Part shown: in pieces, positions 26,952 through 56,599 of the stretch
Position numbering within the stretch: position 1 is the stretch's first letter
Layout: each line of letters starts with the position of its first letter
Virus record (IMG/VR): IMGVR_UViG_3300036985_003683
Location: 1 to 64,000 of that record
Strand: one strand, 5' to 3'
Length of the DNA stretch: 64,000 bases
Source: a virus
The notes under the pieces: model-generated
The model's database searches: none
Seen by the model: only the letters and a program-made list of their open reading frames with translations
What the model was told of the DNA's origin: nothing
Made by a program: the position numbers and the translations under genes

Positions 26952-26957
26952 ATTATA
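26952..26957 (-). promoter_or_regulatory. TATAAT box
   Basis: Minus strand CTATTACGGTATAATAACTG, followed by GGGGAG and ATG 26936. It overlaps the stop of the upstream deoxyhypusine-synthase-like gene. Confidence 0.45.
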
Positions 26958-27903
26958 CCGTAATAGAGGGTGCGGTATTTTGTAAAGCATTGAAAAGTGT
27001 TGGAATCGTAAGGTTGTGGGTACCCTCTACGTAGAAAGACTCCCCCCCGTCGTTTACTGTCCGTATCAGGATGGTCTTCCAAGGACGGAAATAGGCAAGT
27101 GGATCAGACCAAGATGGAACACGAGTTCTCCAGTCCGACGGTAGGTTCACTATGTCGAAAACCGCAGTTGTGAACACCTTGGGAAGCCTATCGGGATCGA
27201 CGTTCCTGGACATGGACAATGCCTTCAGGTAGAGCTCAGGACCATGCACTGCACACCCTACATTGACGAACACTCCACCTTCAAGATGCGACACTGATTC
27301 CACAAAACCTAGAAAGTCATGGTGAGATGCAGTTCCAGTATGCTTCCCTGAAAAGTTGGGACAGGCGTGTATGATGTCTGCACCTATGAGTGGATGAACA
27401 CTGCATGGTACGTTCCACCTATAAGCCTCTCCCAGAACACTATACCCATTACCGTGAGCGCAGTTGTGCATCCCCACTGAAGCAGCTATGCCCAACTCAG
27501 GTGTAGCGTTTATGATGTCGTTCAAGACACTCGTTTCGTGCCACAGTCCAAACTGCCCTGCAGAGATGTGTTTCTGGACGTCCTCGCTAGTCTCACCGAC
27601 GCTGCTCAATTCGTAGTCATGTATCATGACGGAACCGTTACACGCTAGGTGAGTTATCCATCCCTGGCCCAACATCTCCATGATGATCTTGGAGCAACCA
27701 CTCTTGATAACGTGCCCACCCAGAAAGAAGATCCTGGGACGCAGCTCCTTGCGAGCCTTTTTCAAGGCACTGACAAGTGGGGGTAGGTCGGGGTGACTCC
27801 AACCTGGGTCGTATCCAGGCTCAATCAAGTCCTTGAGGTGTAGGAACGAAGACCTACTCTCCAAGGACTTTAGATTGATGCGCGAAACGTCAAACAACTT
27901 CAT
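26953..27903 (-). CDS. Deoxyhypusine-synthase-like protein
   Basis: 316 residues. Conserved blocks are GGHVIKSGCSKIIMEML, HLACNGSVMIHDYELS, GETSEDVQKHISAGQFGLWHET, DIIHACPNFSGKHTGTASHHDF and ILIRTVNDGGESFY. They resemble deoxyhypusine-synthase-fold proteins of bacteria, whose function is largely unknown. True deoxyhypusine synthase uses NAD and spermidine. I cannot see which substrate this one uses, and the call is by pattern memory only. It is full length with no frameshift. In a phage it would be an unusual auxiliary gene. Confidence 0.4.
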   Translation of the reverse strand: MKLFDVSRINLKSLESRSSFLHLKDLIEPGYDPGWSHPDLPPLVSALKKARKELRPRIFFLGGHVIKSGCSKIIMEMLGQGWITHLACNGSVMIHDYELSSVGETSEDVQKHISAGQFGLWHETSVLNDIINATPELGIAASVGMHNCAHGNGYSVLGEAYRWNVPCSVHPLIGADIIHACPNFSGKHTGTASHHDFLGFVESVSHLEGGVFVNVGCAVHGPELYLKALSMSRNVDPDRLPKVFTTAVFDIVNLPSDWRTRVPSWSDPLAYFRPWKTILIRTVNDGGESFYVEGTHNLTIPTLFNALQNTAPSITV

Positions 27904-28185: not shown

Positions 28186-30753
28186 TCAAGAACATCCCGT
28201 GGTAGTTCCACACTGACCACACTTGAAGCACGTACCACTACGTACCATCAGGGTTCCACAATCAGAACAAAATGGATTGTCTGAACTTGTAGATTCTACG
28301 GGAATCTTCAGATAAGTTACCTCGAGCCAGTGTGCGATGCAGTCAAGGATGCTTGAGTAAAAGTGAGTACGTTCCAAACCGGGCAGCTTGACTGGGCCAG
28401 CGGGTTCGAACTTCTGATGTCGGAGCAGCTCCACGTATGTGGATAGAGGCACTCCGTACTGTAGGCCCACCGAGATACCTATGGCGGTACTATTCAGTAG
28501 TCCCTGAAGTGTTGAACCCGACTTGGAAGCTGTGATGAACAGTTCTCCCAATGTACCATCTTCGAAACACCCCGTGTGGATGTACACCTCGATGCCCGCC
28601 AGTGCGAACTTCACCCTGTCGCCCTTGCATACTTGTGGAAGCTTCTTGCGCAGTGGTGTGCTGGTAGATGTAGTCGCCGTGGCCGTCTTGTCGGAAGTAT
28701 TTACGGGCTGACTGCCCTTGGAACCATCTCTGTAGATAGCCATCGACTTCAGTCCCAGAGAGTGAGCTAGTTCGTAAGCTCCCTGGACGTCGTCCACTGT
28801 GGAAGAATTTGGCATGTTGATAGTCTTACTGATAGCGCCAGAGAGGAAGGGCTGCACTGCTGCCATCATCAGTACGTGACCCTTCCAGCTGATTGTCCTC
28901 TCAGCACCTAAGGCAGTATCGAATACTGCTTTGTGACTCTCAGCGACAGCTTCGCACTTGGCAATGTTACCGTGCTGCAAGATGTACTCTTGGATCTCGT
29001 CAATCTCTCTCAGGGAGTAACCCAAGTGTATCAACGCAGGCTCCACGGACTGATTGACGATCTTCTCCACCGATCCCTTCGTACCGTGTATCTGTTTGTA
29101 CTTGACCAAAGCCAGATCGGGTTCGACCCCGGTAGTATCACATCCCATAAAGAGACCAATGGTCCCAGTTGGTGCCAACACAGTCACCTGTGCATTTCTC
29201 ACTGGTTTGTCGTATGTGGCGTTGAACAGTCGCTCAGCTTCCAACAGCATGAGTCCATATTCACCCGTGCGATTACCCACTTTGTCCAAAGCACTACAGT
29301 GCATGGCTATGACCTTACGCACATGTTGAGCATTGGCAGCGTAGCGATCGAATGCTCCCATAGCAGCTGCCACCTCCGATGACTGATGGTAGGCAACAGC
29401 CTGCATGTACGCTGTGATAGCAGCGGCTGTGTCACGTCCACTGTCGGAATCGTACGCTATTCCAGAACGCATCAACAGCGCTCCCAAATTAGCATATCCC
29501 AATCCCAGAGTTCTGAACTTTCGAGTTTGAATCGTCAGACGCTCGTTAGGATAGTGAGCTTCATCGATTACGATGTCCATGGCAGTGATCATAATGCGGA
29601 TCACGCGTTCGAACATCTTGTAGTCGAATACAAGCTTCTCCCCCTGCCTATGAAGCAGCGTTACGAGATTGATGCTGGACAGGTTGCAACTCGTATCGTC
29701 CAAAAACATGTATTCAGAGCACGGATTGGATCCACGAATTTCACCATCCTCTGGACACGTATGCCACTCGTTGATGATGTCATGGAACTGCACTCCCGGA
29801 CAGCCGTTAGTCCAAGCACTACCAGCCAAGCGTTTCATAAGTTCGCGTGCGTCCAGACGCATCACCTCCTGACCAGACTTACGTCCAATCAGTGCCCAAT
29901 CCTCCCCATCAGCGACTGCGTCCATGAAGGCATCTGGGATGCGTACTGAGTTATTGGCGTTCTGCCATGGAACATCTTTGTAGATGCCTGTGTCCCAATC
30001 AGAACTGAAGCCTGCCTCGATGAGCGTGTGGGCAACCTTTTCAGCATGCTCCTTCAGCCCTATGAAGTCGATGATGTCTGGATGGTCGATATCCAGAATA
30101 CGCATCAGTGCACCTCGACGTGCCCTCCCGCCTGACTTCATAGCTCCACAGGCAAAGTCCAGAGCCTTCATGAATGGGATGGGTCCGGAAGCTTGTCCAC
30201 CCTTTCCCAATTGCTCTGCTGAACCTCGTATGTGTGACATGTTCACACCATTACCAGATCCTCGACGGAACACTTCCATCTCGGTGGTGAAGAGACCCTC
30301 GATTGACTCCAGAGTATCTTCCACTGACGAAATGAAGCACGCTGAACACTGCTGTTCTGGGTCAGGCGTTCCCACATTGAACCATACTGGTGAGTTGAAC
30401 GCTGCCTTCTGCGTGATCAGGATGTACGAGAGGTCGGAGTAGAAGTTCTCGCGCTCATCCACAGTGATGAAGTATCCCTGATGGAATCCCCAATCGGAGA
30501 TACGTCGGGCGACACGTTCGATCAACTGACGGATGGACGTTTCACGTTCGGGTGTACCCAGATTCCCATAGAAGTACTTGTGTACTGCCACACGAACTGA
30601 CAACTCATCCCAAAACTCAGGAACTTCCACTCCCAGCTGTTCAAACACCACCTGACCAGATGGATCGATGATACGTACATCGCGTCTGACCCATTTCACA
30701 CTGTCTAGGGGATTCAGACTGGGGGACACTGTTAGGCCACTGAATAACGACAT
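28186..30753 (-). CDS. nrdJ: Adenosylcobalamin-dependent ribonucleotide reductase (class II)
   Basis: 855 residues from ATG 30753, where GGAG is six bases away; ATG 30765 is possible but poorer. Residues about 130-160 hold CSACFISSVEDTLESI, then GVNMSHIRGSAE, NPCSEYMFLDDTSCNLSSINL (active-site Cys and Glu) and APTGTIGLFMGCDTTG. The end has C-x2-C twice (CSDCG and CFKCGQCG), which can carry electrons from thioredoxin. It makes dNDPs or dNTPs for phage DNA and needs host or environmental B12. It lies in the operon with polA and queE. Confidence 0.93.
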   Translation of the reverse strand: MSLFSGLTVSPSLNPLDSVKWVRRDVRIIDPSGQVVFEQLGVEVPEFWDELSVRVAVHKYFYGNLGTPERETSIRQLIERVARRISDWGFHQGYFITVDERENFYSDLSYILITQKAAFNSPVWFNVGTPDPEQQCSACFISSVEDTLESIEGLFTTEMEVFRRGSGNGVNMSHIRGSAEQLGKGGQASGPIPFMKALDFACGAMKSGGRARRGALMRILDIDHPDIIDFIGLKEHAEKVAHTLIEAGFSSDWDTGIYKDVPWQNANNSVRIPDAFMDAVADGEDWALIGRKSGQEVMRLDARELMKRLAGSAWTNGCPGVQFHDIINEWHTCPEDGEIRGSNPCSEYMFLDDTSCNLSSINLVTLLHRQGEKLVFDYKMFERVIRIMITAMDIVIDEAHYPNERLTIQTRKFRTLGLGYANLGALLMRSGIAYDSDSGRDTAAAITAYMQAVAYHQSSEVAAAMGAFDRYAANAQHVRKVIAMHCSALDKVGNRTGEYGLMLLEAERLFNATYDKPVRNAQVTVLAPTGTIGLFMGCDTTGVEPDLALVKYKQIHGTKGSVEKIVNQSVEPALIHLGYSLREIDEIQEYILQHGNIAKCEAVAESHKAVFDTALGAERTISWKGHVLMMAAVQPFLSGAISKTINMPNSSTVDDVQGAYELAHSLGLKSMAIYRDGSKGSQPVNTSDKTATATTSTSTPLRKKLPQVCKGDRVKFALAGIEVYIHTGCFEDGTLGELFITASKSGSTLQGLLNSTAIGISVGLQYGVPLSTYVELLRHQKFEPAGPVKLPGLERTHFYSSILDCIAHWLEVTYLKIPVESTSSDNPFCSDCGTLMVRSGTCFKCGQCGTTTGCS

Positions 30754-30783
30754 TCCAAACTCCATATCAGATGTGAAAAGGTG

Positions 30784-31509
30784 CTACTTCTTACGTGCTG
30801 CGGGTTCCCAAATGATCTTGTGCAACTGGAGGGATAACTGTAGAGGGGCCAGTGAGGGGTCACTACTGAGTATCGCGCCCGCGAGTCCCTTAACTCCCAA
30901 CTGACCTTCCCACACGGGACTGAAGAGTGCAGTTGCTTCACAAGATATCAGACGCTGGGATGCCAAGTGTTCTACGGCTTGTTCCCAGTCTTCCATGTCT
31001 GACACTACATACTTGATAGTGTCACGTTTGCGCAAGAAGGTGAAAGCAGCTTGCTTCATCTTCTTGGTCATACCACTCTTGGTCAACTTGTAGTCCACAC
31101 AAATGCTCACGCGCTCTCCAACCCCGTTGGCTCCGAGCTCATCAATGAGAGTGTACGTAGGCATGTGTCCGCCGGTCTCGATCACTATGTAGTAACTGGC
31201 TTCTACCAGCTTCAGAATGAGGGCCAACATGTGTTCTGGATTCTGTTGGAGGGGATCTCCACCAGTGATGCACACGTCGTTATAGGTAGCCCCGAACCCC
31301 TTTACAGTGCTCACGACGTCGTCCACAGAGACGTATTCGCCCTCTTGGACTTCAGACGCAGCCTTGCCAAAGGGCAAACCGTAGGGGGTGTCGCACCAAA
31401 CACATCTCAAGGAACATCCCTGAGTGCGAACAAAGATGGTGGGATATCCTGCACGGATACCCTCCCCTTGTAAAGATGGGTAAACCTCATTGATGTGTAA
31501 CTCGTTCAT
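30784..31509 (-). CDS. queE: 7-carboxy-7-deazaguanine synthase
   Basis: 241 residues from ATG 31509 (AAGGAGG upstream), overlapping the nucleotidyltransferase stop as ATGA. The start NELHINEVYPSLQGEG and VRTQGCSLRCVWCDTPYG carry the radical SAM cluster cysteines C32, C36 and C39. ITGGDPLQQ is the SAM-binding motif. It turns 6-carboxy-tetrahydropterin into the deazaguanine ring by radical chemistry. Together with FolE, QueD and DpdA it forms most of the preQ0 pathway. Confidence 0.92.
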   Translation of the reverse strand: MNELHINEVYPSLQGEGIRAGYPTIFVRTQGCSLRCVWCDTPYGLPFGKAASEVQEGEYVSVDDVVSTVKGFGATYNDVCITGGDPLQQNPEHMLALILKLVEASYYIVIETGGHMPTYTLIDELGANGVGERVSICVDYKLTKSGMTKKMKQAAFTFLRKRDTIKYVVSDMEDWEQAVEHLASQRLISCEATALFSPVWEGQLGVKGLAGAILSSDPSLAPLQLSLQLHKIIWEPAARKK

Positions 31510-32042
31510 GGTACCTCCTTATGAATGGGACGTTGGTGGGAAGCCTTGATAATATCGGTAGTGGACCATGTCCCCAGAAGATTCAGACGCACTATCTGAA
31601 CTCCGTGTATCTGGTCTTCCTTGGAACACTTAAACGCTGGACGTTCTTCGCTATGTCCGTGTACCACTACCTGGGGCTGCAGTAGGTGTACCAGATGCTC
31701 GGGATGAGGCTCGTCAAACTGTAGAATGTAGTCCACTTCAGAAACGTTAGCCACCATCAACTTACGTGCGTAGGTGTCCCAAATTGGTTCACGCTTCTTG
31801 TATGAGCGGATGGATACGTCTGAATTCACAGCCACGACGAGGAGGGCTCCCTCTGTATGAGCTGCCCTTCCTGCACGTGTTAGAAAGGACAGATGGCCTG
31901 GATGAAAGAGGTCAAAGCACCCAGAAGTGAACCAGATGCTACCACCAGTACCCCTGTGTGGATTATCTCGACGCAATTTCAAAATGCGCGAGAACTCTTC
32001 CACTCCGATGAATTTGGTCTCCTGGGACACAAACTCCATCAT
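31506..32042 (-). CDS. Adenylyl/cytidylyltransferase (HldE C-domain-like)
   Basis: 178 residues. FTSGCFDLFHPGHLSFL carries the nucleotidyltransferase H-x-G-H motif; VVAVNSDVSIRSYKKREP and LVHLLQPQVVVHG follow, and WSTTDII stands for the I-S-S-T-x-x motif. It matches glycerol-3-phosphate cytidylyltransferase or the C-terminal domain of HldE, which makes ADP-heptose. It activates a sugar or alcohol phosphate; the GT9 domain in the 53.3-56.6 kb protein would use an ADP- or CDP-linked sugar. The substrate is inferred, not seen. Confidence 0.75.
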   Translation of the reverse strand: MMEFVSQETKFIGVEEFSRILKLRRDNPHRGTGGSIWFTSGCFDLFHPGHLSFLTRAGRAAHTEGALLVVAVNSDVSIRSYKKREPIWDTYARKLMVANVSEVDYILQFDEPHPEHLVHLLQPQVVVHGHSEERPAFKCSKEDQIHGVQIVRLNLLGTWSTTDIIKASHQRPIHKEVP

Positions 32043-32383
32043 AGCTGATCTCCCACTTCCACTCGAATAGAGTCTGCCTCGAAGTGTTGAGTGCTCACTT
32101 CGAGAATGACATTGACTTCCTCAACTCCCGTAAACCTGTGCTTCTGGTATGGGAAAATATCCACGGTCATACCAGGGGTCATGAACCGTACCTCTCCCTC
32201 GAGCTCCATCTTGATCTGCCCCTTTAGGACGTGAAAGGTCTCGGTCTTCTGTTCATGGTAGTGGAGACTACACCTCTTGCTAGGAAGCACTGTGAGTAGT
32301 TTACCACAATACAGAGCGGAATTGGAGACCCACTCTTCGCGTCCCCATCCCTTAGGCACTACCTTTATGAATGAGCGAATCAT
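32039..32383 (-). CDS. Cupin, mannose-6-phosphate isomerase C-domain-like
   Basis: 114 residues, overlapping both neighbours. PKGWGREEWV, then SLHYHEQKTETFHVLKG, with metal His and Glu ligands, and PYQKHRFTG fit a one-domain cupin like the C-terminal half of type II phosphomannose isomerases. It could act on a sugar nucleotide precursor with the nucleotidyltransferase that follows. It is far shorter than complete PMI enzymes, so a binding role is possible. Confidence 0.65.
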   Translation of the reverse strand: MIRSFIKVVPKGWGREEWVSNSALYCGKLLTVLPSKRCSLHYHEQKTETFHVLKGQIKMELEGEVRFMTPGMTVDIFPYQKHRFTGVEEVNVILEVSTQHFEADSIRVEVGDQL

Positions 32384-35019
32384 CTCTCAGCTTTCTTCTT
32401 GGCGATATACTCGTACACTGTGGCAGTCATAGTCTTGTCGACTTCTTCCCAACGCTTCCCGACTTTCAGATCTACTGGGAAGGAGACGTTACCCAATTGT
32501 GGATAAGCACGTTCCATACAGCTATGCATGATCCACGCGGCTTCGAGAACTTCAGTCGCGGGAGTCTCAACGTACAGGGCGTCATGGTGTGTAATGACTA
32601 GTCCAGAGAGCATCTTCTGAGACTTGTACCGCTGGTGCACCTCTGCAGTGGCAGCGGATAGAAGGTCAGAACCGGAACTCTGAACGCCAAAGTTCACAGC
32701 CTGTCTCTCCATTTCTTCGCGTTGGAACTTACACTGCCATACGAAGCTATCATTCCCACCCGAGTAGCGCTTCATGCGTGAAGGGTCGAAGAACTGGTAT
32801 CCGTACAAGCGTCTCTTCCGTCCGAAGTTGTTGCTGACTTCACCCTTCTCGCGTAAGTCTCCATGTTTAGCATCGAAGTAGCGCTTCAGTCCCTTAAAGC
32901 GTGCGAAGTACTTGTTGATGAACTCCTGTGCCTGAGCCTGGGAGACCTGAATTTCTTCAGCGAGACCGTATGCACTGATACCGTACACGATACCGAAGTT
33001 GATCGCCTTAGCTGCCCTTCTCTGTTGATCCGAAACCTCGTCGTATCCCACTCCGAAGGCTTCACCAGCTACCAGCCTGTGAATGTCACGTCCCGTTCTG
33101 AACGCTTCAAGCATGACCTCTTCTTGACAGACTGAGGCCACCACGCGAAGTTCCAACTGGCTATAGTCCGCTTGAAGTAGCCACCAACCCTCTGGTACTG
33201 TGAAGAGGAGTCGCAGCTGTGCGTACTCGGGGTCCTTGTCAGGATCGGGAATGTTGTGAATCGCAGGTTCTGATGTGGACAACCTACCCGTAACAACAGT
33301 ATGCTGCTTGTAGGATGGATACACTCTCCCAGTACGTTCTACCCAGAACTTGATCATGCCACCCTCGCCATCTTTTCCAGCGAGGTACGTACTGATCTTC
33401 TTCTGGCTCTTTCGTATCTCCATCATAGCCCCCACCACTGGATGTGAGGTAGCTTTCCACAGAGCAGCGAGGACCTCCACGTCGGTCGAAGGTGCTCCAG
33501 ATGCTGTACGCTTGTTCACAGGTAGGCCCAAACCTGGGACGTAAGCCTTTCCATCGATCCCCTTGCCGTCCCATCCTGGAGTGGAAGGTGGCGTAGGCGG
33601 ATTGAAGAACGCTTGAACGAGTTGTGCTGGAGACTGTAGGTTGATCTCCCGTCCGACTAACCTCCATACCTCCTGAGTGTGGGTAGCCTCTCGAACGCGT
33701 TCAGTGGCTTGCAACTCCTCCAAGAGGGTAGCGTCCAACACTATACCCCGGTACTCCATATCCACCAGCGCCCTATTCAAGGGCATAACGATCTGTTCGA
33801 AGAACTGTCGTAGTGGGATAGGTTCCCAGACTCCCTCGTGGAAGTGATCAGTATACTCGTAATCGAGCTGTGCTGATAGCGCGTCCCCTACGCGAATCAG
33901 TGCGTCGGCATCGGCTCCAGAATACGTCCACAACATCTCCTCTGGAAAGTCAGCGTACGTGGTGAGTTTGTTGTTTGCCTTCCACTCTTTCAGTGCGTGA
34001 GAGTAGAGAGGCATATTCGTGTACACGCCCAGTAGGAAGTCCAACCCATGGGGAGTATTTTCCTGGAGGGTGTGATGGCAGAGCATCGTGTCGAAGGTGA
34101 ACGAGTCCAGATTGAACTCCCAACCGTTGGACCTGATGAAGTTGATGTCGAAGATGCCGTTCTGTGCCCACTTGGGTGTAACACTGTTCCAGAACTCTTG
34201 CAGGATGGCCTTGACCTGAACGAACTCTTCCTCGGTCCAAATTCTACGCGCTTTATGTCCCAAGAAGGGAACAACAAAGCCCGTACCTGGATACGCACTG
34301 AACGAAGCGCACAAGATGTTCCAATCTGGAACCAAATTGAAGTCCCAGAAGTTGTACGAGGTAGTTTCCAAGTCGAAACCCACTCGAGGTTGAGTGAGTA
34401 GGTAATCTACCATGGACCTCAGATCTGCCAGGTTAGTTATCACCCGGTAGTCGCCCAACTTCTCTTCTGACCAACCCTCGCGAATCATCCTTCCCAACTT
34501 GCGGAAGTCCTCTAGGATGATGGGATAGTCCTCCCAACGTCGGAACACTGTAGAGGGAGAACTCATACAGTAGACTGTGACTGGTTGGGGAAGAACGTGA
34601 CCGTCAATTTCAGTGATGGGGAAGAATCTTCCCCGCATGTCTGTGATGCCAGTGGTACTCATGACCCCCTGAAGAGCGTCAGCACCCATAACAACTATGA
34701 TCTTGGGTCGGACCAGAACGACTTCGTCAATCAGATGAGGCCTACACGCCTTGTGGTGTTTTACTCCGATCGTCTTATTGGGTAATGGTCGACATCGAAT
34801 GGAGCTGGTAACACGAACCTGAGCACGTGTCAACCCAGCTTCGGCCAATAGGTCATTGAAGAGAAAACCAGCTTCACCCGCTAAGGGGAATCCATGATTC
34901 TCCTCGGCAGCTCCAGGTGGTGGACCCACAAAGAGAATATCACATGGAGCAGGTCCAACGCCCTCCATGCAATTCAACAACATAGACGAAGTGTGAAATT
35001 CACACGCGGTACACGTCAT
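32380..35019 (-). CDS. DNA polymerase A with N-terminal Fe-S uracil-DNA-glycosylase-like domain
   Basis: 879 residues. Residues 1-185 resemble family 4 UDG: CTAC at the start, GPAPCDILFVGPPPGAAEE, RCRPLPNK and KACRPHL give four Fe-S cysteines. Residues about 205-390 are a 3'-5' exonuclease (GFDLETTS, GIFDINFI, YSGADADALI). The polymerase has motif A DYSQLELR and motif B RRAAKAINFGIVYG. In motif C the usual HDE is HDA (ITHHDALYVE), with Glu replaced by Ala. No 5' nuclease domain; FEN is separate. SPO1 polymerase has a similar N-terminal UDG-like domain. It replicates the genome. Confidence 0.9.
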   Translation of the reverse strand: MTCTACEFHTSSMLLNCMEGVGPAPCDILFVGPPPGAAEENHGFPLAGEAGFLFNDLLAEAGLTRAQVRVTSSIRCRPLPNKTIGVKHHKACRPHLIDEVVLVRPKIIVVMGADALQGVMSTTGITDMRGRFFPITEIDGHVLPQPVTVYCMSSPSTVFRRWEDYPIILEDFRKLGRMIREGWSEEKLGDYRVITNLADLRSMVDYLLTQPRVGFDLETTSYNFWDFNLVPDWNILCASFSAYPGTGFVVPFLGHKARRIWTEEEFVQVKAILQEFWNSVTPKWAQNGIFDINFIRSNGWEFNLDSFTFDTMLCHHTLQENTPHGLDFLLGVYTNMPLYSHALKEWKANNKLTTYADFPEEMLWTYSGADADALIRVGDALSAQLDYEYTDHFHEGVWEPIPLRQFFEQIVMPLNRALVDMEYRGIVLDATLLEELQATERVREATHTQEVWRLVGREINLQSPAQLVQAFFNPPTPPSTPGWDGKGIDGKAYVPGLGLPVNKRTASGAPSTDVEVLAALWKATSHPVVGAMMEIRKSQKKISTYLAGKDGEGGMIKFWVERTGRVYPSYKQHTVVTGRLSTSEPAIHNIPDPDKDPEYAQLRLLFTVPEGWWLLQADYSQLELRVVASVCQEEVMLEAFRTGRDIHRLVAGEAFGVGYDEVSDQQRRAAKAINFGIVYGISAYGLAEEIQVSQAQAQEFINKYFARFKGLKRYFDAKHGDLREKGEVSNNFGRKRRLYGYQFFDPSRMKRYSGGNDSFVWQCKFQREEMERQAVNFGVQSSGSDLLSAATAEVHQRYKSQKMLSGLVITHHDALYVETPATEVLEAAWIMHSCMERAYPQLGNVSFPVDLKVGKRWEEVDKTMTATVYEYIAKKKAER

Positions 35020-35021
35020 AC

Positions 35022-35345
35022 CTAGACTCCCAAAATGACCTTCATTACACGTTGCAAGTCAGTGGACAACTCTACGTTAACGTTGTCATCACTAAACTTC
35101 TTGCCCGTGTATATTGTACCGATTACAGCACCGCGATCTTTTGAGTACTTGACGTCACGAACGCTCCCACAACTCACACCGTACATGTCGAGTAGGGGAA
35201 TTGATGATGGTGTACGTAATGCCACCATGCCTAGTGCATCTTCCCCTAGGCCGTGTGTATTGAGTGGGATCAACACAGTAAGTGTAGCCACTTCTGCATC
35301 TTCTCCTGTATGCCAAACTGTCACCGGATCCCATTCACTAGCCAT
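35022..35345 (-). CDS. Small protein between polymerase and aminotransferase genes
   Basis: 107 residues starting MASEWDPVTVWHTGEDAEVA. Beta-rich, ending LSTDLQRVMKVILGV. No recognised family. It overlaps the aminotransferase gene by eight bases and ends just before the polymerase start. It may be a binding partner of one neighbour, but nothing in the sequence shows this. Confidence 0.6.
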   Translation of the reverse strand: MASEWDPVTVWHTGEDAEVATLTVLIPLNTHGLGEDALGMVALRTPSSIPLLDMYGVSCGSVRDVKYSKDRGAVIGTIYTGKKFSDDNVNVELSTDLQRVMKVILGV

Positions 35346-36426
35346 CTAGTACCTCCAACATCTTAGTAAGGGTGTGCCCAAAGTCTACAAGGGACATGAT
35401 CAAGTGTGGAGTGAGTATGATCCAAGGACCAAAGTGATTCACAAGGATGCCCGCCTTGCGCAACTCCAGAGCTGCCCTGGTGGCATCTCCTACGTGGATG
35501 TGTATCATACTTCCAGTGACGCGTACATTCCAATCCTTGAATGTCTCAATGACCAACATTCCCATATTGTAGGAGCGTTGAGCTAGGCACAACTCACTAC
35601 CGTGCCCCTGCTTGATGGTTTCAATCACATTGAGACCTACCTGAGCTGCCCTTGGACTGATCGAAGGCCACCCGCGCGGTGGTTTGTAGCAGTCTTCATA
35701 CCCTGACGCATGGCCTAGGGCACATAGTGGGAGGCCCTGGCCTAGTGACTCTGACGCTATCACGATATCCGCGTGGTGGTGGGCCCCTGAAATGAAGCCT
35801 GTGATCCCGCATCGTGCAAATGACGTGGCACTCTCATCTACGATGACAAATGCCCCGATCTGTTCCGACAGGGACTTGATACGTTCCATCACTTCGTAAC
35901 CAAGGGCAAGTCCCGTGCGTCTCTGCACCGGCTCATAGATGATCGCATCGTACTCTCTGAGTAAGATGTCGGGTACTATATCCCCAGTTAATATATCCGG
36001 AGATAGGGGGCAGGTTTGGAATGGTGCTCTGAAATGGGCGTTTGGTTCTGAGAACTGCTCAGTAGTAATACTCCCCCCATGCTCCCCATCGTCCACATAG
36101 ATCACGCGACGCGCTAGTGCTCCCACAAGTTGTTCGCGGAAAGCAAAAACGCACCGAAGAGCCATTTCGACTGCTTCGGTGCGTGAATGTGTGAAACGCC
36201 AAGTGTTCATCTGTGGATACAGATCACACATGGCTCCTTGTAAACGTTCGACATGCCTGTGTCCAAGTGGACCACAGTGAATGGGAGCTTCAGATACGAG
36301 AGCTCCAGGCCAGTTATGACCTAGAGAAATCTCACCAGCGTTACCACCAGCCAGGTCGATGATAACAGTACCATCTTCCAGTCTATAACTCCAACCCCGG
36401 GCGGAGAAGGTATTTTGAGTAAGCAC
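35338..36426 (-). CDS. Class III aminotransferase-like protein without the PLP lysine
   Basis: 362 residues from GTG 36426 (AAGGAAG upstream). The fold is recognisable: FTHSRTEAVEMALRCV is the phosphate-binding motif, IIYEPVQRR the E-P region, and VIVDESATSFARCG the D-E motif with D197 for the PLP ring nitrogen. Then ASESLGQGLPLCALG aligns with the lysine loop (x-G-K-x-x-G-G-G-x-P), but the Schiff-base lysine position is E226. It may have lost transamination, become a sugar dehydratase-like or binding protein, or use a cofactor differently. It is next to dpdA. Confidence 0.75.
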   Translation of the reverse strand: MLTQNTFSARGWSYRLEDGTVIIDLAGGNAGEISLGHNWPGALVSEAPIHCGPLGHRHVERLQGAMCDLYPQMNTWRFTHSRTEAVEMALRCVFAFREQLVGALARRVIYVDDGEHGGSITTEQFSEPNAHFRAPFQTCPLSPDILTGDIVPDILLREYDAIIYEPVQRRTGLALGYEVMERIKSLSEQIGAFVIVDESATSFARCGITGFISGAHHHADIVIASESLGQGLPLCALGHASGYEDCYKPPRGWPSISPRAAQVGLNVIETIKQGHGSELCLAQRSYNMGMLVIETFKDWNVRVTGSMIHIHVGDATRAALELRKAGILVNHFGPWIILTPHLIMSLVDFGHTLTKMLEVLDG

Positions 36427-36429
36427 AGA

Positions 36430-37368
36430 TTACGCTTCCTTGAGAGATGACAGTCTGTCCAATGACTCCCATGACATGGAGTTCTCAACACCTCTGCACA
36501 GTTCCAAGAACCTACATACGTTGTTAGCGATCAGGGCGCGTTCTGCCCTCACCAGTTCGCCTCCAAAGTTCATCTTGAAGTGAGGCTTGACAGAGCCCAT
36601 ATGCAGAGGCCTTCCCTCGACTCCCAATTGCACTGCGAAGGAGGTGTCGATGCTTCTGATCAGGGGATGGATTCTGTAGTGAGGGATGGCCTTGGGCGAT
36701 CGCAGTCCCAGCAGGTGGATAGGCTTCTTCAATGGCCCGCGGTGTATGAACTCGAAACGTGCGTCCCCTGTCAGACTGAGATCTGCTGAAACTCCCAATC
36801 CACCCGAGAGTAGATTGATCAGAGCCAAACGGGCTGTCTCGGATTCATCACCAATTCCAAAGTCGGTCAACACGCCGCGCATGTCGTGTGGAATCTCACA
36901 ATAGGAGACTCCGATGACATCCACTCGTGGATTCTCTTCCATCCACTGAAAGCAGTACAACCATTCGCGAAGGGACTTGCCCTGCACCACTCCTTGTATC
37001 GCAAATGGAAAGTCGTCAGACATTTCCAAGAAGGTTTCCATCCCGTGAATGGTGCGTTCCATGTCGTTCAGAAAGTCTGTTGGAATGACTTCGTCGGCGT
37101 CCAACGTGGTAGCGATGTCGAGCAACTTACGATTGGTAGGCGGATTCTGTGGGTCCTCGAAAATGCCCGAGTCCACTACGCGGTACCGGTGAGGAGGTCG
37201 CTCAGCTACGAACATTTCGCGATACTTAACATCGCGAATGGCAGTGAGTCCAATGAGGAAATCGAAATCAGTGAACTCGTTCACTACGCTGTGTACACAC
37301 AGTGGGTACTCAGCAGCTACCTTGAGTGTGCGCGAATCGCAAGGCATCACTCGGACTTTAGACGTCAT
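36430..37368 (-). CDS. dpdA: DpdA-like DNA 7-deazaguanine transglycosylase
   Basis: 312 residues from ATG 37368 (GGGAGAG upstream). It is a TGT-family TIM barrel like phage DpdA: VVDSGIFEDP (family S-D-S-G-x-F), DADEVIPTDFLND with the likely nucleophile Asp, FAIQGVVQGKSLREWLYCF, and KPIHLLGLRSPKAIPHYR. DpdA exchanges guanine in DNA for a 7-deazaguanine such as preQ0. The zinc-binding C-terminus of tRNA TGT enzymes is not visible. FolE, QueD and QueE in the same unit support the pathway. Confidence 0.8.
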   Translation of the reverse strand: MTSKVRVMPCDSRTLKVAAEYPLCVHSVVNEFTDFDFLIGLTAIRDVKYREMFVAERPPHRYRVVDSGIFEDPQNPPTNRKLLDIATTLDADEVIPTDFLNDMERTIHGMETFLEMSDDFPFAIQGVVQGKSLREWLYCFQWMEENPRVDVIGVSYCEIPHDMRGVLTDFGIGDESETARLALINLLSGGLGVSADLSLTGDARFEFIHRGPLKKPIHLLGLRSPKAIPHYRIHPLIRSIDTSFAVQLGVEGRPLHMGSVKPHFKMNFGGELVRAERALIANNVCRFLELCRGVENSMSWESLDRLSSLKEA

Positions 37369-37672
37369 TATCAGTTCTCTCCCTGTTCCAAATTTCTTGA
37401 CCCAATAGGCCATACCCAGCCAAATCTGAATACGGATTCTCTTCGTCCACTCTACGGTTGGGGCTAGCGATCCTCACCATCTTGTCAAACATGCGAGCCA
37501 AGAGTAACGCGTGATTGTAATCGGCACCTGACATACCCTGGGGGTACAGCAAGCGTAGGAACTCCCCAGTAAGAGCAAAGGCTTCTCCATACTGGACGTT
37601 CTTGACATCTACCAATTGGCCAATTTCAACTGCAAGCTTTTCGAATGGACCTGGATCGCGCTCGTTGGTCAT
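37358..37672 (-). CDS. Small phage protein with KNVQYG...YPxG pattern
   Basis: 104 residues from ATG 37672. DVKNVQYGEAFALTGEFLRL and YNHALLLARMFDKMVRIAS, then NPYSDLAGYGLLGQEIW, recall small helical phage proteins related to the MazG/DUF6378 type. The acidic metal motif is incomplete, so I do not call enzyme activity. It ends inside the dpdA start region (11-base overlap), so it is translated with it. Confidence 0.55.
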   Translation of the reverse strand: MTNERDPGPFEKLAVEIGQLVDVKNVQYGEAFALTGEFLRLLYPQGMSGADYNHALLLARMFDKMVRIASPNRRVDEENPYSDLAGYGLLGQEIWNRERTDNDV

Positions 37673-37706: not shown

Positions 37707-38303
37707 CTACCGTGAAGTCAACTCAACAATCTTGAAGAATTCATCCTTCAAGGTGGTCTCAGACAGCATCTTACCCCGCATAGCGGACGTGGTGGTGTTG
37801 TGCCCTGGAGACTTAACTCCCCGCATAGACATACAGAGATGTTCACCACTCATCACAACGGCGACCGCTGCTGGGTTCAGCTTCTCCACAAGCAAGTCTG
37901 CGATCTCCTCAGTGAGGCGCTCTTGAACTTGCAATTTGGCAGAGAGGTGTTGCACTGTTCGAGCTAACTTGGACAGTCCACACAACTTATCACTGGGCAG
38001 GTATCCAATGTGACACTTCCCGAAGAAGGGCACCATGTGATGGGAACACAGCGAGTAGTATGTGATCCCCGTGGTCACAACAAGTGAAGGTTCTGCCCCC
38101 TCATCAAGTGGAAATGTGGTGAAGTTGAAATCGGGCTCCTTGTACCCCCGAAGCAGTTCGTGATACATCTTGGCGACACGTTTAGGCGTATCCACAAAAT
38201 GTGAATCCTCTACGGGAGCTCCGCACCTCTGCATGAACTCTCGGAACAGAGCCTCGGTATCAACGTGTGCGAGTTCAGGATTCGAGCGGGATATGGCTGG
38301 CAT
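37707..38303 (-). CDS. folE: GTP cyclohydrolase I
   Basis: 198 residues from ATG 38303; the ORF extends seven codons upstream without support. Zinc and catalytic residues are visible in SLCSHHMVPFFGKCHIGYLP and GEHLCMSMRGV, and LSKLARTVQHLSAKLQVQER is a family hallmark. Length fits FolE (about 200). It makes 7,8-dihydroneopterin triphosphate from GTP, the first step to preQ0 (and folate). It overlaps the methyltransferase gene by 29 bases. Confidence 0.93.
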   Translation of the reverse strand: MPAISRSNPELAHVDTEALFREFMQRCGAPVEDSHFVDTPKRVAKMYHELLRGYKEPDFNFTTFPLDEGAEPSLVVTTGITYYSLCSHHMVPFFGKCHIGYLPSDKLCGLSKLARTVQHLSAKLQVQERLTEEIADLLVEKLNPAAVAVVMSGEHLCMSMRGVKSPGHNTTTSAMRGKMLSETTLKDEFFKIVELTSR

Positions 38304-38850
38304 GTCTGGACCTTTTGTAAACACATACTGAGACGTGGGGTTCGAATTCCCAATCGCGTTTAGAGATCAACGTGACGTTATTCGCAGTTGCCCAAGACTC
38401 AAAGGAGTTGCGGAAATTGAAATTAGGAAAGTCACTTGGACTTTCCGACTCTAGGAGGAACAAGTATGCCCAATGTGACTCCTGTAGGAGTTGTAAGTGG
38501 GCTGGGAAGTTCTCAGGGGGAATGTGCTGCATTACGTAGCACGAGAGAACAGCGGTTACGTCGAAGGGAGTGCCGTAGGGAAGAACCTCCAATGGTGTTG
38601 TACACGCTTGTGGCATGTTGATGTTGCGGTCTATGGATATGACGTGAAAGCGCGTACTCAGGGGCTGTGATACCCGTCCCACGCCACACCCCAAATCTGC
38701 TACTCGTCTTCCCTCACTAACGTACACAGAAATCAGGTCCATGATGGCACGAGGTTCGTCATACCATTTGCGGAGGGTCATCAGTCCACCTGTGGAGGCA
38801 GCGTGGGCTTCTTCCCCTTCCAAGTTGGCCCAATCAGTGACGGTCTTCAT
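38275..38850 (-). CDS. Class I SAM methyltransferase
   Basis: 191 residues from ATG 38850, overlapping the queD stop as ATGA. Motif I is VADLGCGVGRVSQPL, then ISIDRNINMP and VTAVLSCYVMQHIPPENF, all Methyltransf_11-like. The substrate is unknown. Because it lies between queD and folE, a role in modifying the deazaguanine or DNA is possible, but this is inference from position. Confidence 0.75.
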   Translation of the reverse strand: MKTVTDWANLEGEEAHAASTGGLMTLRKWYDEPRAIMDLISVYVSEGRRVADLGCGVGRVSQPLSTRFHVISIDRNINMPQACTTPLEVLPYGTPFDVTAVLSCYVMQHIPPENFPAHLQLLQESHWAYLFLLESESPSDFPNFNFRNSFESWATANNVTLISKRDWEFEPHVSVCVYKRSRHASHIPLES

Positions 38851-39287
38851 AGAGAGACTTCCGCGAAGCAGTTTTCTGTCTCCCACAGTGTAACCTTCAC
38901 TATGGTGATATCACAATCTGCGAATACGTGTGGACACACACTCGTCAGTAGGAACTTTGCCATGTTCTCGGCAGTGGGGTTGTCTGGGAGTACAAAGTAC
39001 TTCTGATTAACTGCATCGCCATGTGTCCACACAGTCACCAGAGGATCGTTCTGGAAGAGGATCATTCCATGATCCCAATTGTCATCGATCCACCGACCGA
39101 GTTTCTCCTTGATTACACCGAAATCGATGATTCTGCCCAGGGTGTCCAATTCTGGAGCGTATGCTTCCACGAGTAGGACATAGTTGTGTCCGTGTAGGTT
39201 GTTACACTTGCTTTCGTGCAGGTGTACACGATGCCCCGAACAGAACTGGAATCGACGTGTGCAGGAGATTCTAGGACTTTTTACCAC
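38847..39287 (-). CDS. queD: 6-carboxy-tetrahydropterin synthase
   Basis: 146 residues from GTG 39287 with GAGGAC upstream. An upstream ORF extension runs through the operator and promoter and cannot be translated from that promoter. FCSGHRVHL, CNNLHGHNY and DNWDHGMIL carry the zinc histidines (H19, H32, H34) and Cys28 of QueD. It converts dihydroneopterin triphosphate into 6-carboxy-tetrahydropterin, the substrate of QueE. It is the first gene after the operator-like element. Confidence 0.9.
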   Translation of the reverse strand: MVKSPRISCTRRFQFCSGHRVHLHESKCNNLHGHNYVLLVEAYAPELDTLGRIIDFGVIKEKLGRWIDDNWDHGMILFQNDPLVTVWTHGDAVNQKYFVLPDNPTAENMAKFLLTSVCPHVFADCDITIVKVTLWETENCFAEVSL

Positions 39288-39308
39288 TGTGTCCTCACTT
39301 TTAAGCGT

Positions 39309-39331
39309 TTTATACCAACGTATACAGTTGG
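39309..39331 (-). promoter_or_regulatory. Operator-promoter of queD, copy 2 of a 23-bp repeat
   Basis: Identical to 8651-8673 over 23 bases: near-palindrome CCAACTGTATACGTTGG (39315-39331), then TATAAA (39309-39314). The start codon GTG lies at 39287. Just upstream of both copies a TTTWATGTTG stretch is seen at similar distance. Confidence 0.7.
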
Positions 39332-39393
39332 TTGAAATTCGAGCAACATTAAATACCCGCCACGAGGCACCAAAGATCCTCGATAATGCAGAC

Positions 39394-39426
39394 AAAAGGG
39401 CGACTGACACATAGTCAGTCGCCCTT
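39394..39426 (-). terminator. Hairpin terminator between sigma and queD genes
   Basis: Stem AAGGGCGACTGAC / GTCAGTCGCCCTT (13 bp, five-base loop), then TTG on the minus strand. The T-run is short, so it may be partial or need Rho. It ends the sigma-gene transcript before the queD operator. Confidence 0.7.
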
Positions 39427-45209: not shown

Positions 45210-45444
45210 AAATCAACCCTTTCGCACAATGCTTGCATACAGACTTGCCTAGAAGGCGTACAAGTGTGTCGTCGGAATTTTCGTAAATGACGCAAGTGCC
45301 TGGTATGACCTTGTCGTCGTGAATGAGCCTCCTGCCACATTGAGAGCATCCACATAGTAGGTGAATGCGCTGGATTGCTCCTAGGGTAGCTAGTCTGAGC
45401 GTATCCTCGGAGTCTATATCATTCCAGAAATCTGAGACAGTCAT
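45184..45444 (-). CDS. Small zinc-binding protein
   Basis: 86 residues from ATG 45444, overlapping the RmlD-like stop as ATGA with GGAGG upstream. LCGCSQCGRRLI and SVCKHCAKG make a C-x2-C ... C-x2-C zinc site, spaced about 32 residues apart. No further match. It overlaps the helicase start region, so expression is coupled. Confidence 0.65.
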   Translation of the reverse strand: MTVSDFWNDIDSEDTLRLATLGAIQRIHLLCGCSQCGRRLIHDDKVIPGTCVIYENSDDTLVRLLGKSVCKHCAKGLIFDNHTHRS

Positions 45445-46268
45445 CGGACCTCCAAATACTCCCTGATAGAATTGGTTATTAAAGGTAGAGACCAATTATA
45501 CCTCGTCGACAAATTAAATACGTTGTGTTCAAGTGTTCCCACTGATGTCCCCGTTACCTCACGCGAAGACCCATACTCCTTAACTATGTCGCGTGCGAAA
45601 CTGTACCAAGAGTAGTCACGCAGATGTGGTGGAGCTATATGTACTATGCGTGGGACGTAATCCGTCACCACCAATTCCGCGAATACGTCAGCGATGTGGG
45701 GACAGTATCCTGGGCTGCATCCCATATTGGATGGAAACTCCAGGGGCTCGCCACTCTCCACCTTACGAAGTACCTGTTCAACGAAATTGGGACGTGACTT
45801 ACCTCTACAGGGGGAGGGTCCATACAGGGCCGAAACACGGACGACTGTGTTTTGGTGCCTCAACAGCGTTTCGCTAGCTCTCTTGCTGTCAGAGTACACT
45901 GACTTGTGACTGATACTGGTCTCAGTGTCCTCGTAGCAAACCCCCGGAGAGGAAAATACCATATCCGTACTGACGTGAAACAGCTTGGCGGATACCTTCC
46001 GTGCAGTGTGATCCATCACTGCCACTGCTAGGGTGTTCACTGCACGAGTGGTGGTGGGCTGCAGTTCACACTTGGCTATATCATGCATAGCTGCGCAATT
46101 GATGATTACGTTGGGGTTCTCTGCTATGATGTACTCTTGCAGTCCGAACAGATCGGTCACATCGCATTCCGAATGAGTGGGAGTGATCAGATAGTGACCC
46201 CTCTCCAGCAATCGGCTAGATATGGCGCTTCCCAATTGACCTTGCGCACCCAGTACTAGAATCCTCAT
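45441..46268 (-). CDS. RmlD-like NAD(P)-dependent sugar reductase
   Basis: 275 residues from ATG 46268. MRILVLGAQGQLGSAISSRL is the Rossmann G-x-x-G-x-x-G motif; KLFHVSTDMVFS and KSVYSDSKRASE carry the catalytic Ser/Tyr-x-x-x-Lys. Pattern and size fit dTDP-4-dehydrorhamnose reductase. It probably makes the last step of a deoxysugar nucleotide. RmlC-like and epimerase genes are next to it, but RmlA and RmlB are not seen in the window. Confidence 0.78.
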   Translation of the reverse strand: MRILVLGAQGQLGSAISSRLLERGHYLITPTHSECDVTDLFGLQEYIIAENPNVIINCAAMHDIAKCELQPTTTRAVNTLAVAVMDHTARKVSAKLFHVSTDMVFSSPGVCYEDTETSISHKSVYSDSKRASETLLRHQNTVVRVSALYGPSPCRGKSRPNFVEQVLRKVESGEPLEFPSNMGCSPGYCPHIADVFAELVVTDYVPRIVHIAPPHLRDYSWYSFARDIVKEYGSSREVTGTSVGTLEHNVFNLSTRYNWSLPLITNSIREYLEVR

Positions 46269-46401
46269 GTTGTGACTCACTTCTACGATACACCTTGAGA
46301 GTGGACATAATTACCACAAACGCGAAAAGGAACGAAGCCCCCATAAGGAAGAAGCCTCCGTGCACATATAGACTTCCATTTTCGTACGAAAACACATGCA
46401 T
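46216..46401 (-). CDS. Small membrane protein inside the sugar operon
   Basis: 61 residues from ATG 46401, with GGAGTATGAT upstream. The segment GFFLMGASFLFAFVVIMSTL is a strong membrane helix, followed by KVYRRSESQ, a basic cytoplasmic-side tail. It overlaps RmlD-like by 53 bases in another phase and follows the epimerase. No family is known. It could anchor sugar enzymes at the membrane, but that is inference. Confidence 0.5.
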   Translation of the reverse strand: MHVFSYENGSLYVHGGFFLMGASFLFAFVVIMSTLKVYRRSESQHEDSSTGCARSIGKRHI

Positions 46402-46402
46402 A

Positions 46403-47371
46403 TCATACTCCAGGTGGTAGATAGAGGTCGCGAATCCAATGGCGCATTCGTACGACTTCATGCATCCAAGGAACATTGCGACTGGTTGGTTCGTTGAAGT
46501 TAAATCGGGAGTGCAGCAACTCCTTCACGGCATAATCAATAGTGAGTTGTGCTTGCAGACCTAGGGAAGTAGCTCTCTCACATGTCATGTGATACGAACG
46601 AGCACTTCCAGAATCGTTCCCCTCCATGATTTCAATCGCAGGTGCACCAGTGTGTAGTCCCACCAATCGAGCGATATCCAACATGGTGTAGTTATGCTTG
46701 CACAAGTTGATGGTAGTGGGTACCTTCATCCTGTCTAGCAGCATCATCATGAGTGTTGCGTAGGCGTTCACAGCGTCTGTGACATGTAGGAGAGGTCGCT
46801 CAGTGTTGGGTCCCCAAACACGTATCTTACTCTCATTGGCCGCAGAGGCCGTCATAGCATTTACTACCAAATCCATACGTGTACGCTCAGACCCCAATCC
46901 CATAAGTGTCCCCTTTCGAAGACAGGTATAGTCATGGGGTCTCAGCTTTCTCGCGATGTATTGCTCAGCTGCCCACTTGAGTTTGCCATAGTCACAGATA
47001 GGTGTTGGATCAGTCTCATCTCCCACTACGTCTTGAGAAAAACCATACACGCTTGCGGTAGATGCAAAGACCAGTGGAATACGCTTACCAGTCTCAAGAA
47101 TCATATCCACTAGATGTCTGGTTTCCGAGAGTGAGAACTTCTGCAGGTTCTGAAAGTCACTCCCTGCGGATGAGAACCACGCCAGATGGAAGATGCCGTC
47201 GTACTCTTTCAACTCCCAGGATTCCAGTGTGCCCACAGTGCGATTGGATATCCTTGCAGGGTACGTAAACCACCCCGCGTCCAAACAGTCCACCTCCATG
47301 CCACTCGCAATGAGGAGCTTCACTAGACCCGCCCCAACGTATCCACTCGACCCTGTGACTAGGAACTTCAT
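46403..47371 (-). CDS. NAD-dependent nucleotide-sugar epimerase/dehydratase
   Basis: 322 residues from ATG 47371, overlapping RmlC-like as ATGA. MKFLVTGSSGYVGAGLVKLL is the Rossmann start; STASVYGF and CDYGKLKWAAEQY carry Ser and Tyr-x-x-x-Lys. This is the extended SDR fold of GalE-like epimerases and 4,6-dehydratases. The exact reaction is not decided by sequence. It probably processes the nucleotide sugar that the nearby transferases use. Confidence 0.8.
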   Translation of the reverse strand: MKFLVTGSSGYVGAGLVKLLIASGMEVDCLDAGWFTYPARISNRTVGTLESWELKEYDGIFHLAWFSSAGSDFQNLQKFSLSETRHLVDMILETGKRIPLVFASTASVYGFSQDVVGDETDPTPICDYGKLKWAAEQYIARKLRPHDYTCLRKGTLMGLGSERTRMDLVVNAMTASAANESKIRVWGPNTERPLLHVTDAVNAYATLMMMLLDRMKVPTTINLCKHNYTMLDIARLVGLHTGAPAIEIMEGNDSGSARSYHMTCERATSLGLQAQLTIDYAVKELLHSRFNFNEPTSRNVPWMHEVVRMRHWIRDLYLPPGV

Positions 47372-47916
47372 TTTGGTCTCACTTCCCAATAGACTCCAGA
47401 TGTCTTGAACGCATCATACGAAATGCGTTCCTCATCTGGCTTGTTACGGTCGTACACTTCTGAACCAGTGCACACCATGATTGTGTTAGGTGTCAGGGAC
47501 TGCCAGCCGTGCCAGAACCCCGGCGGAATGGTCAACCTCTGCATAGGCGCTGCCGACAGGATGAACTGACGTGCTTCACCCTCTGGAGATACGACCCACA
47601 CACGGGCCTTACCGTTCACTATTGTGAAGAAGTCCCACAGTTTCTCGTGTCGATGGAACGCCCGGATGGTCATGGCCTGTTCATTGCGTACAATGTACGT
47701 TTGGCCAAAGTTACCAACCTGAAGTGGAACTTCCACCCGAGCAGGCGTACCCTCAATCGGAAGGAGTACTGGTCCCTCCTTACGGTGTACGACTGACTCT
47801 GCCCTGAAGTATTCCACCGTGGGTAGATCGTAGTTGTGTACAATCTCAGTCAGATCTCCCCGATCGTCGTGCAATGTTGTCAAAGCCTCAAGGAGAGGCC
47901 CGTTCTGCTTAATCAT
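47368..47916 (-). CDS. RmlC-like dTDP-sugar 3,5-epimerase (cupin)
   Basis: 182 residues from ATG 47916 (GGAG upstream), while the longer frame to 47970 would cross the promoter. Cupin core: DLTEIVHNYDLP, RAFHRHEKLWDFFTIVNGKA with an RmlC-type His, then IPPGFWHGWQSL and TGSEVYDRNKPDEERISYD. These match dTDP-4-dehydrorhamnose 3,5-epimerase family proteins. It could be a 3- or 5-epimerase. Promoter TATAAT 47947-47952 lies ahead. Confidence 0.78.
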   Translation of the reverse strand: MIKQNGPLLEALTTLHDDRGDLTEIVHNYDLPTVEYFRAESVVHRKEGPVLLPIEGTPARVEVPLQVGNFGQTYIVRNEQAMTIRAFHRHEKLWDFFTIVNGKARVWVVSPEGEARQFILSAAPMQRLTIPPGFWHGWQSLTPNTIMVCTGSEVYDRNKPDEERISYDAFKTSGVYWEVRPK

Positions 47917-47946
47917 CCCAATCTCCATTAGTAGGTCGTACCAAAA

Positions 47947-47952
47947 ATTATA
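47947..47952 (-). promoter_or_regulatory. TATAAT promoter at the sugar-gene boundary
   Basis: Minus strand GGTGTCACGGGTATAATTTT. The box overlaps the stop of the large transferase gene and lies 31 bases before ATG 47916, so the RmlC-epimerase-RmlD genes can be transcribed separately. Confidence 0.5.
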
Positions 47953-51834: not shown

Positions 51835-51875
51835 CGTTTCACCTCTATAGACATCGATTTAACCACAGTTATCAG

Positions 51876-51928
51876 CGTTAAAGGCAATAAAGTACCGGCC
51901 CCGCTACATAAAGTACCCGCTACGTAGC
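51876..51928 (-). repeat. 53-bp element, copy B, directly after a stop codon
   Basis: Minus-strand copy of the 19713-19765 element (10 mismatches in 53). It starts immediately after the TAG at 51929 and occupies the gap to the next gene. It contains the palindrome GCTACGTAGC and two TAGCGG...CTTTAT units. Confidence 0.7.
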
Positions 51929-56586: not shown

Positions 56587-56599
56587 GGGGGCAGTCCTC

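Follow-up and report, generated by a model that had tools for sequence, protein, structure and literature searches.

A class III aminotransferase-like protein with an apparently dismantled PLP pocket beside a DpdA-like gene in a bacterial virus

Gene order and the 7-deazaguanine setting

The window analysed here is a stretch of 64,000 nucleotides from an 87,018-base record of a bacterial virus (IMGVR_UViG_3300036985_003683), a record that may itself be incomplete. The genes that concern us are the following:

30784..31509, minus strand: QueE radical SAM protein (TIGR04349 2.1e-44, PHROG 1.6e-33)
32380..35019, minus strand: family A DNA polymerase, in the same gene run as the pseudo-aminotransferase (tblastn 3e-79 to phage DNA polymerases)
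35022..35345, minus strand: 107-aa ORF overlapping the end of the pseudo-aminotransferase gene
35338..36426, minus strand: pseudo-aminotransferase of predicted class III fold, 362 aa (GTG start 36426-36424, stop TAG 35340-35338)
36430..37413, minus strand: DpdA-like (DNA guanine transglycosylase) gene (tblastn 3e-12 to an annotated Flavobacterium phage DpdA)
37707..38324, minus strand: FolE, GTP cyclohydrolase I (Pfam 4.4e-58)
38275..38886, minus strand: class I methyltransferase-like ORF overlapping QueD and FolE (weak Pfam match, 2e-4; PHROG tRNA methyltransferase, 8e-7)
38847..39410, minus strand: QueD, 6-pyruvoyl tetrahydropterin synthase family (Pfam 3.7e-27)
about 68,791-69,438 of the record (L016:4791-5438), outside the window: QueC

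The stop codon of the upstream DpdA-like gene and the GTG start of the pseudo-aminotransferase gene lie three bases apart, and the latter gene is full length, as an earlier note on this DNA had stated, with 362 codons and an intact frame. That note had also placed it next to dpdA and a polymerase; the DpdA-like gene does adjoin it, whereas the polymerase is separated from it by the 107-aa ORF, which gave no matches in Pfam or PHROG. An HldE-like nucleotidyltransferase and a cupin are encoded between the polymerase and QueE (31506-32383), and a B12-dependent (class II) ribonucleotide reductase (28186-30765) lies just downstream of QueE.

Since the window encodes FolE, QueD, QueE and a DpdA-like protein and the rest of the record adds QueC, the phage can probably make preQ0. 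Gene sets of FolE, QueD, QueE, QueC and DpdA give dPreQ0, with ArcS, QueF-L or Gat-QueC as further enzymes (Hutinet et al. 2019, PMC6884629). The methyltransferase-like ORF could methylate a deazaguanine. The DpdA label denotes weak homology to annotated phage genes, because searches of the PDB, including a profile search, gave no match and the structure model is of very low confidence (pLDDT 31); Pfam gave no match either. By tblastn the protein also matches hypothetical proteins of Cellulophaga phages and of the Campylobacter phages CP220 and CPt10, the latter two being thought possibly to lack DpdA (Hutinet et al. 2019, PMC6884629).

Elsewhere in the window are a GSU2086 family protein (26953-27903, NCBIfam 5.7e-88), which has no match among annotated phages, a NusG-like phage protein (42532-43104, Pfam 2.7e-10), and a run of sugar genes (45441-56658) encoding an RmlD-like protein, an epimerase, GT2 proteins and a 1128-aa GT2/GT9 protein.

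Predicted fold and cofactor pocket

The 362-aa protein matches the Pfam family PF00202 (Aminotran_3) at 57.8 bits against a curated cut-off of 30.5 (1.1e-15), placing it in the class III aminotransferase family to which it had been assigned from the letters alone. Its AlphaFold2 model (pLDDT 82.3, pTM 0.85) rests on a 49-row alignment made up of Lys-bearing homologues and therefore says little about the pocket itself. Comparison with ornithine aminotransferase families, a check that the earlier note had proposed, returned a fold type I structure: in a Foldseek search of the PDB the best solved matches were ArgD and OAT structures (TMq 0.78-0.82; ArgD 0.79), class III enzymes whose fold the model resembles at a sequence identity of mostly 15-22% among the structural matches. 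The class III fold is thus predicted to be retained, at an identity to cellular enzymes of 17-25% over the protein. What separates the protein from ArgD and OAT is the set of PLP contacts, present in those enzymes and missing here.

To read the pocket we used 71 homologues, comprising 67 cellular and four phage relatives, with nine more diverse class III proteins as an additional comparison. Patterns spanning columns ~80-89 and 195-203 were used to collect the cellular sequences, so that these columns are biased towards conservation, while columns 115, 226, 256-257 and 337 are free of this bias. The pocket positions are:

35749..35751, minus strand: Glu226, codon GAG, at the Schiff-base Lys position (Lys in 71/71 homologues and in 9/9 diverse class III proteins)
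35836..35838, minus strand: Asp197, the pyridine-nitrogen Asp, retained (Asp in all homologues; pattern-gathered column)
36082..36084, minus strand: Glu115, replacing the PLP-stacking Phe/Tyr of G[FY]HG (Phe/Tyr in 67/67 cellular and 4/4 phage homologues)
36181..36183, minus strand: Arg82, replacing the phosphate-cup Gly of S/T-G-x-E-A (Gly in 67/67 cellular and 4/4 phage homologues; pattern-gathered column)
35656..35661, minus strand: Ile256-Ser257 with a 3-residue deletion, at the second phosphate loop site (homologues nearly all Thr/Ser at 256 and Asn at 257)
35416..35418, minus strand: Ile337, replacing the C-terminal carboxylate-binding Arg (Arg in 99% of the 71 homologues and in 4/4 phage homologues)

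Alignment to the aminotransferase families places Glu226 on the catalytic lysine, 29 residues past Asp197 as first proposed, and phmmer against PDB chains agrees with MAFFT on this register; the GAG codon was confirmed at 35751-35749. The stacking position was also compared in the nine diverse proteins, and Glu115 is not aromatic. Ile337 occupies a column that varies among those nine, its usual Arg being the holder of the substrate carboxylate in the class III family. Beside Glu115, Ile256/Ser257 and Ile337, Ser199 is a further changed pocket residue. Thirty-two columns are near-invariant, a single residue making up at least 95% of the 71 homologues; the protein conforms in 23 of these and departs in nine. 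The kept columns include Asp197 and Glu198, a motif that the earlier note had called intact, along with His116, Glu165, Pro233 and fold-forming glycines and prolines. The same note had regarded the phosphate-binding motif (SRTEAVEMAL) as kept; this does not hold, Arg82 in SRTEA standing where the sampled homologues have an invariant Gly.

We also considered whether a lysine elsewhere in the fold might compensate. The only lysines are at 184, 248, 272, 297, 324 and 355, and in the homologue alignment none lies near Glu226; Lys248, which precedes the second phosphate loop, might conceivably act across the dimer. A sequencing or assembly error has a negligible chance of accounting for the pocket: Lys to Glu would take a single base (AAG to GAG), but several separate positions are changed, some by more than one base, and the frame is intact. 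The original view that Glu226 is no sequencing slip is borne out, since base-calling errors cannot produce Phe/Tyr to Glu or the remaining changes.

With the Schiff-base Lys, the stacking aromatic, the cup Gly, the second phosphate loop and the carboxylate Arg all lost, covalent PLP binding or transamination by this protein is very unlikely, judging from its sequence. A PLP enzyme with a single unusual residue would be a poorer description of it than a protein with a wholly dismantled PLP pocket. This bears on a comparison with the sugar dehydratase ColD and related Lys-less enzymes, in which the lysine is likewise replaced, in their case by His, and the other cofactor contacts are retained. 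A Lys-less PLP/PMP enzyme in which Glu226 acts as catalytic base, as the His does in ColD, would fit the retention of Asp197 and the capacity of Glu to serve as a general base; however, the rest of the cofactor site that ColD-type enzymes keep is gone here, and we consider such an activity most improbable.

Phage relatives and descent

Among phages, the best relatives of the protein come from the Synechococcus phages Yong-L2-223 and Ssp-JY38, which encode an aminotransferase-like protein, and from three IMG/VR contigs (L018, L020 and L021); all of these relatives carry Lys at the 226 position. With this Lys-type clade the protein has in common its fold family, a short length (335-364 aa) and nine residues, and its genome shares the company of QueE, QueC, QueD, FolE and DpdA genes. 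In contrast, the clade has the Lys, the Phe, the Gly, an NTT..NN-type loop, the Arg and a neighbouring ArcS-core gene, none of which was found in the window protein or its surroundings.

Phylogenetic reconstruction groups the window protein with four phage Lys-type proteins (support 97/90), a placement that may reflect long-branch attraction because its end branch is very long (3.62). In AU tests a position inside the main cellular group was disfavoured (p 0.023), and a position with another divergent group was not rejected (p 0.089). Independently of the tree, the window protein shares W76, S119, P152, D160, Y164, C206, Q230, G238 and W253 with the phage clade, each being present in no more than 1% of the cellular homologues, although G238 is also found outside the clade, among the nine more diverse class III proteins. 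Taken together, the tree grouping and the nine shared residues make descent from the phage Lys-type clade likely.

A search for the same Glu in homologues, another of the checks proposed at the outset, found none in IMG/VR or among annotated phages. Neither the pattern and alignment scans of IMG/VR nor the annotated phages yielded a second sequence with Glu226, and single-protein IMG/VR scans gave no close relatives of the 362-aa protein, of protein P0001 or of the neighbouring polymerase. Scanning IMG/VR with a degenerate pattern that places Glu at the position of the Lys gave 11 matches, none of them aminotransferases, and a Lys-or-Glu pattern for the QG.P signature recovered as relatives only the three known Lys-type contigs. 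Alignment scans returned the same three together with a distant Lys-type class III protein (L022), while among annotated phages the phage-like kin were confined to the Synechococcus phages. Matches labelled 'Acinetobacter phage MD-2021a' were set aside, as they look like bacterial DNA.

The genomes of the Lys-type relatives carry QueC and DpdA-type genes, along with QueE, QueD and FolE where the stretch is readable (L020 is a partial contig). Together with the DpdA-like neighbour of the window protein, these 7-deazaguanine operons lend weight to the link with base modification raised in the earlier note. Its alternative of a sugar enzyme fares less well, as the nearest relatives sit in deazaguanine clusters rather than sugar clusters, and the best relatives by NCBIfam, PDB and structure are other than sugar aminotransferases. 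In the phage relatives the aminotransferase gene directly adjoins one for an ArcS-core domain protein (DUF5591/NF040592):

L018:9815-11823: Lys-type aminotransferase and ArcS-core pair
L020:1961-3975: Lys-type aminotransferase and ArcS-core pair
L021:9992-11970: Lys-type aminotransferase and ArcS-core pair
L003:11776-13790: Lys-type aminotransferase and ArcS-core pair

The ArcS-core neighbour has a HAD-like N-terminus in L018 (recognised by eye) and in L021 (a weak NCBIfam match). ArcS attaches lysine to preQ0 (PMC11298593), and in the survey of phage deazaguanines cited above (PMC6884629) the word aminotransferase appears once, in a figure legend, for genes making G+ from preQ0. The 87 kb record of the window virus gave no ArcS or DUF5591 match, an absence that is provisional because the record may be incomplete. 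An ArcS-core gene is present beside the Lys-type relatives and was not found with the dead protein, a single case that is consistent with catalysis having been lost after the loss of this pathway partner.

The same observations could be explained if the gene were a relic, an aminotransferase recently inactivated and now drifting functionless in a frame that chance has left open. The branch of 3.62, the want of a sister sequence and the apparent absence of the ArcS-core partner from the genome would all fit such decay; however, 362 codons run without a stop, both adjacent genes are tightly coupled to this one, the fold prediction is confident and 23 of the 32 near-invariant columns are kept. 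Since replacements of the kind Phe/Tyr to Glu take more than one substitution, the gene must have stayed open for a long time. We therefore regard a relic as unlikely. The protein, its cofactor residues gone, probably persists in a function that is not transamination.

Possible roles of the protein

One such function would be served by a pocket rebuilt for a new ligand or reaction, making the protein a PLP-independent enzyme or a binding protein of the modification pathway. Glu115, Glu226 and Asp197 would form an acidic site, with Arg82 in the cup, and a metal, an amine or a deazaguanine intermediate could be the ligand. Glu has replaced both the aromatic residue and the Lys, Arg has entered the cup, Asp197 and His116 are retained, the gene persists within a run of deazaguanine genes, and carboxylates often read the guanine edge. 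Yet salt bridges plugging an empty pocket would account for the new residues equally well, and we hold a rebuilt pocket to be possible but rather doubtful.

Precedents for a non-catalytic role are provided by dead PLP-fold subunits such as SPTLC1 (LCB1), a fold type I subunit that has lost its Schiff-base Lys, as the window protein has, and that works with the active partner SPTLC2. In class III enzymes the two subunits of a dimer share an active site, so the protein might, by analogy, join and alter an active class III aminotransferase of the host. However, SPTLC1 has an established active partner, whereas the phage genome shows no active class III paralogue (it has one class III match, in a record that may be incomplete), and an identity of at most 25% to cellular enzymes speaks against pairing with one of these. 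A pseudo-subunit of a host enzyme is highly improbable in our judgement.

The reading we favour, tentatively and at somewhat less than even confidence, is that a pseudo-aminotransferase derived from the Lys-type phage clade persists, in a non-catalytic capacity, as a component of the deazaguanine or replication machinery. Its kin and genomic position suggest that its ancestor would have been an active, Lys-bearing phage aminotransferase of the 7-deazaguanine pathway, encoded beside an ArcS-like enzyme. The sequence itself shows that, in the window phage, a protein descended from the class III fold has lost the Schiff-base Lys and the other cofactor contacts listed above while keeping fold-forming residues and Asp197; PLP aldimine formation and transamination, we infer, went with the lost contacts. 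Catalysis would have gone in a phage for which the ArcS-like partner was not found, and the protein would have been retained in the dpdA gene run. The weakest step is the last, in which it may act as a scaffold, a chaperone or a regulator, serving either the guanine-exchange machinery or the polymerase. Counting against the favoured reading are the failure to find a second Glu226 sequence, the long branch of 3.62 and the alternative placement left standing by the AU test (p 0.089). Of the interpretation first offered from the letters alone, the Lys-to-Glu replacement and the connection to base modification survive, while the intact phosphate motif and the sugar enzyme do not.

A bolder form of the proposal, speculative and on balance unlikely, is that a PLP-free fold has been recruited to phage DNA guanine exchange, either as an essential partner of DpdA or through an acidic pocket that binds a 7-deazaguanine intermediate. 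To our knowledge, PLP-fold pseudoenzymes are few, and we know of no description of a PLP-free aminotransferase fold as a deazaguanine-pathway protein; the open literature that we searched held no PLP-fold pseudoenzyme in phage DNA modification. Should the protein prove to be a partner of DpdA, it would reveal how base exchange is tuned by phages. The pairing of a Lys-type aminotransferase with an ArcS-core protein in phage deazaguanine operons appears undescribed, provisionally so because a later study (NAR 2023) reportedly covers further phage deazaguanines, and the pair may make an unknown modified base.
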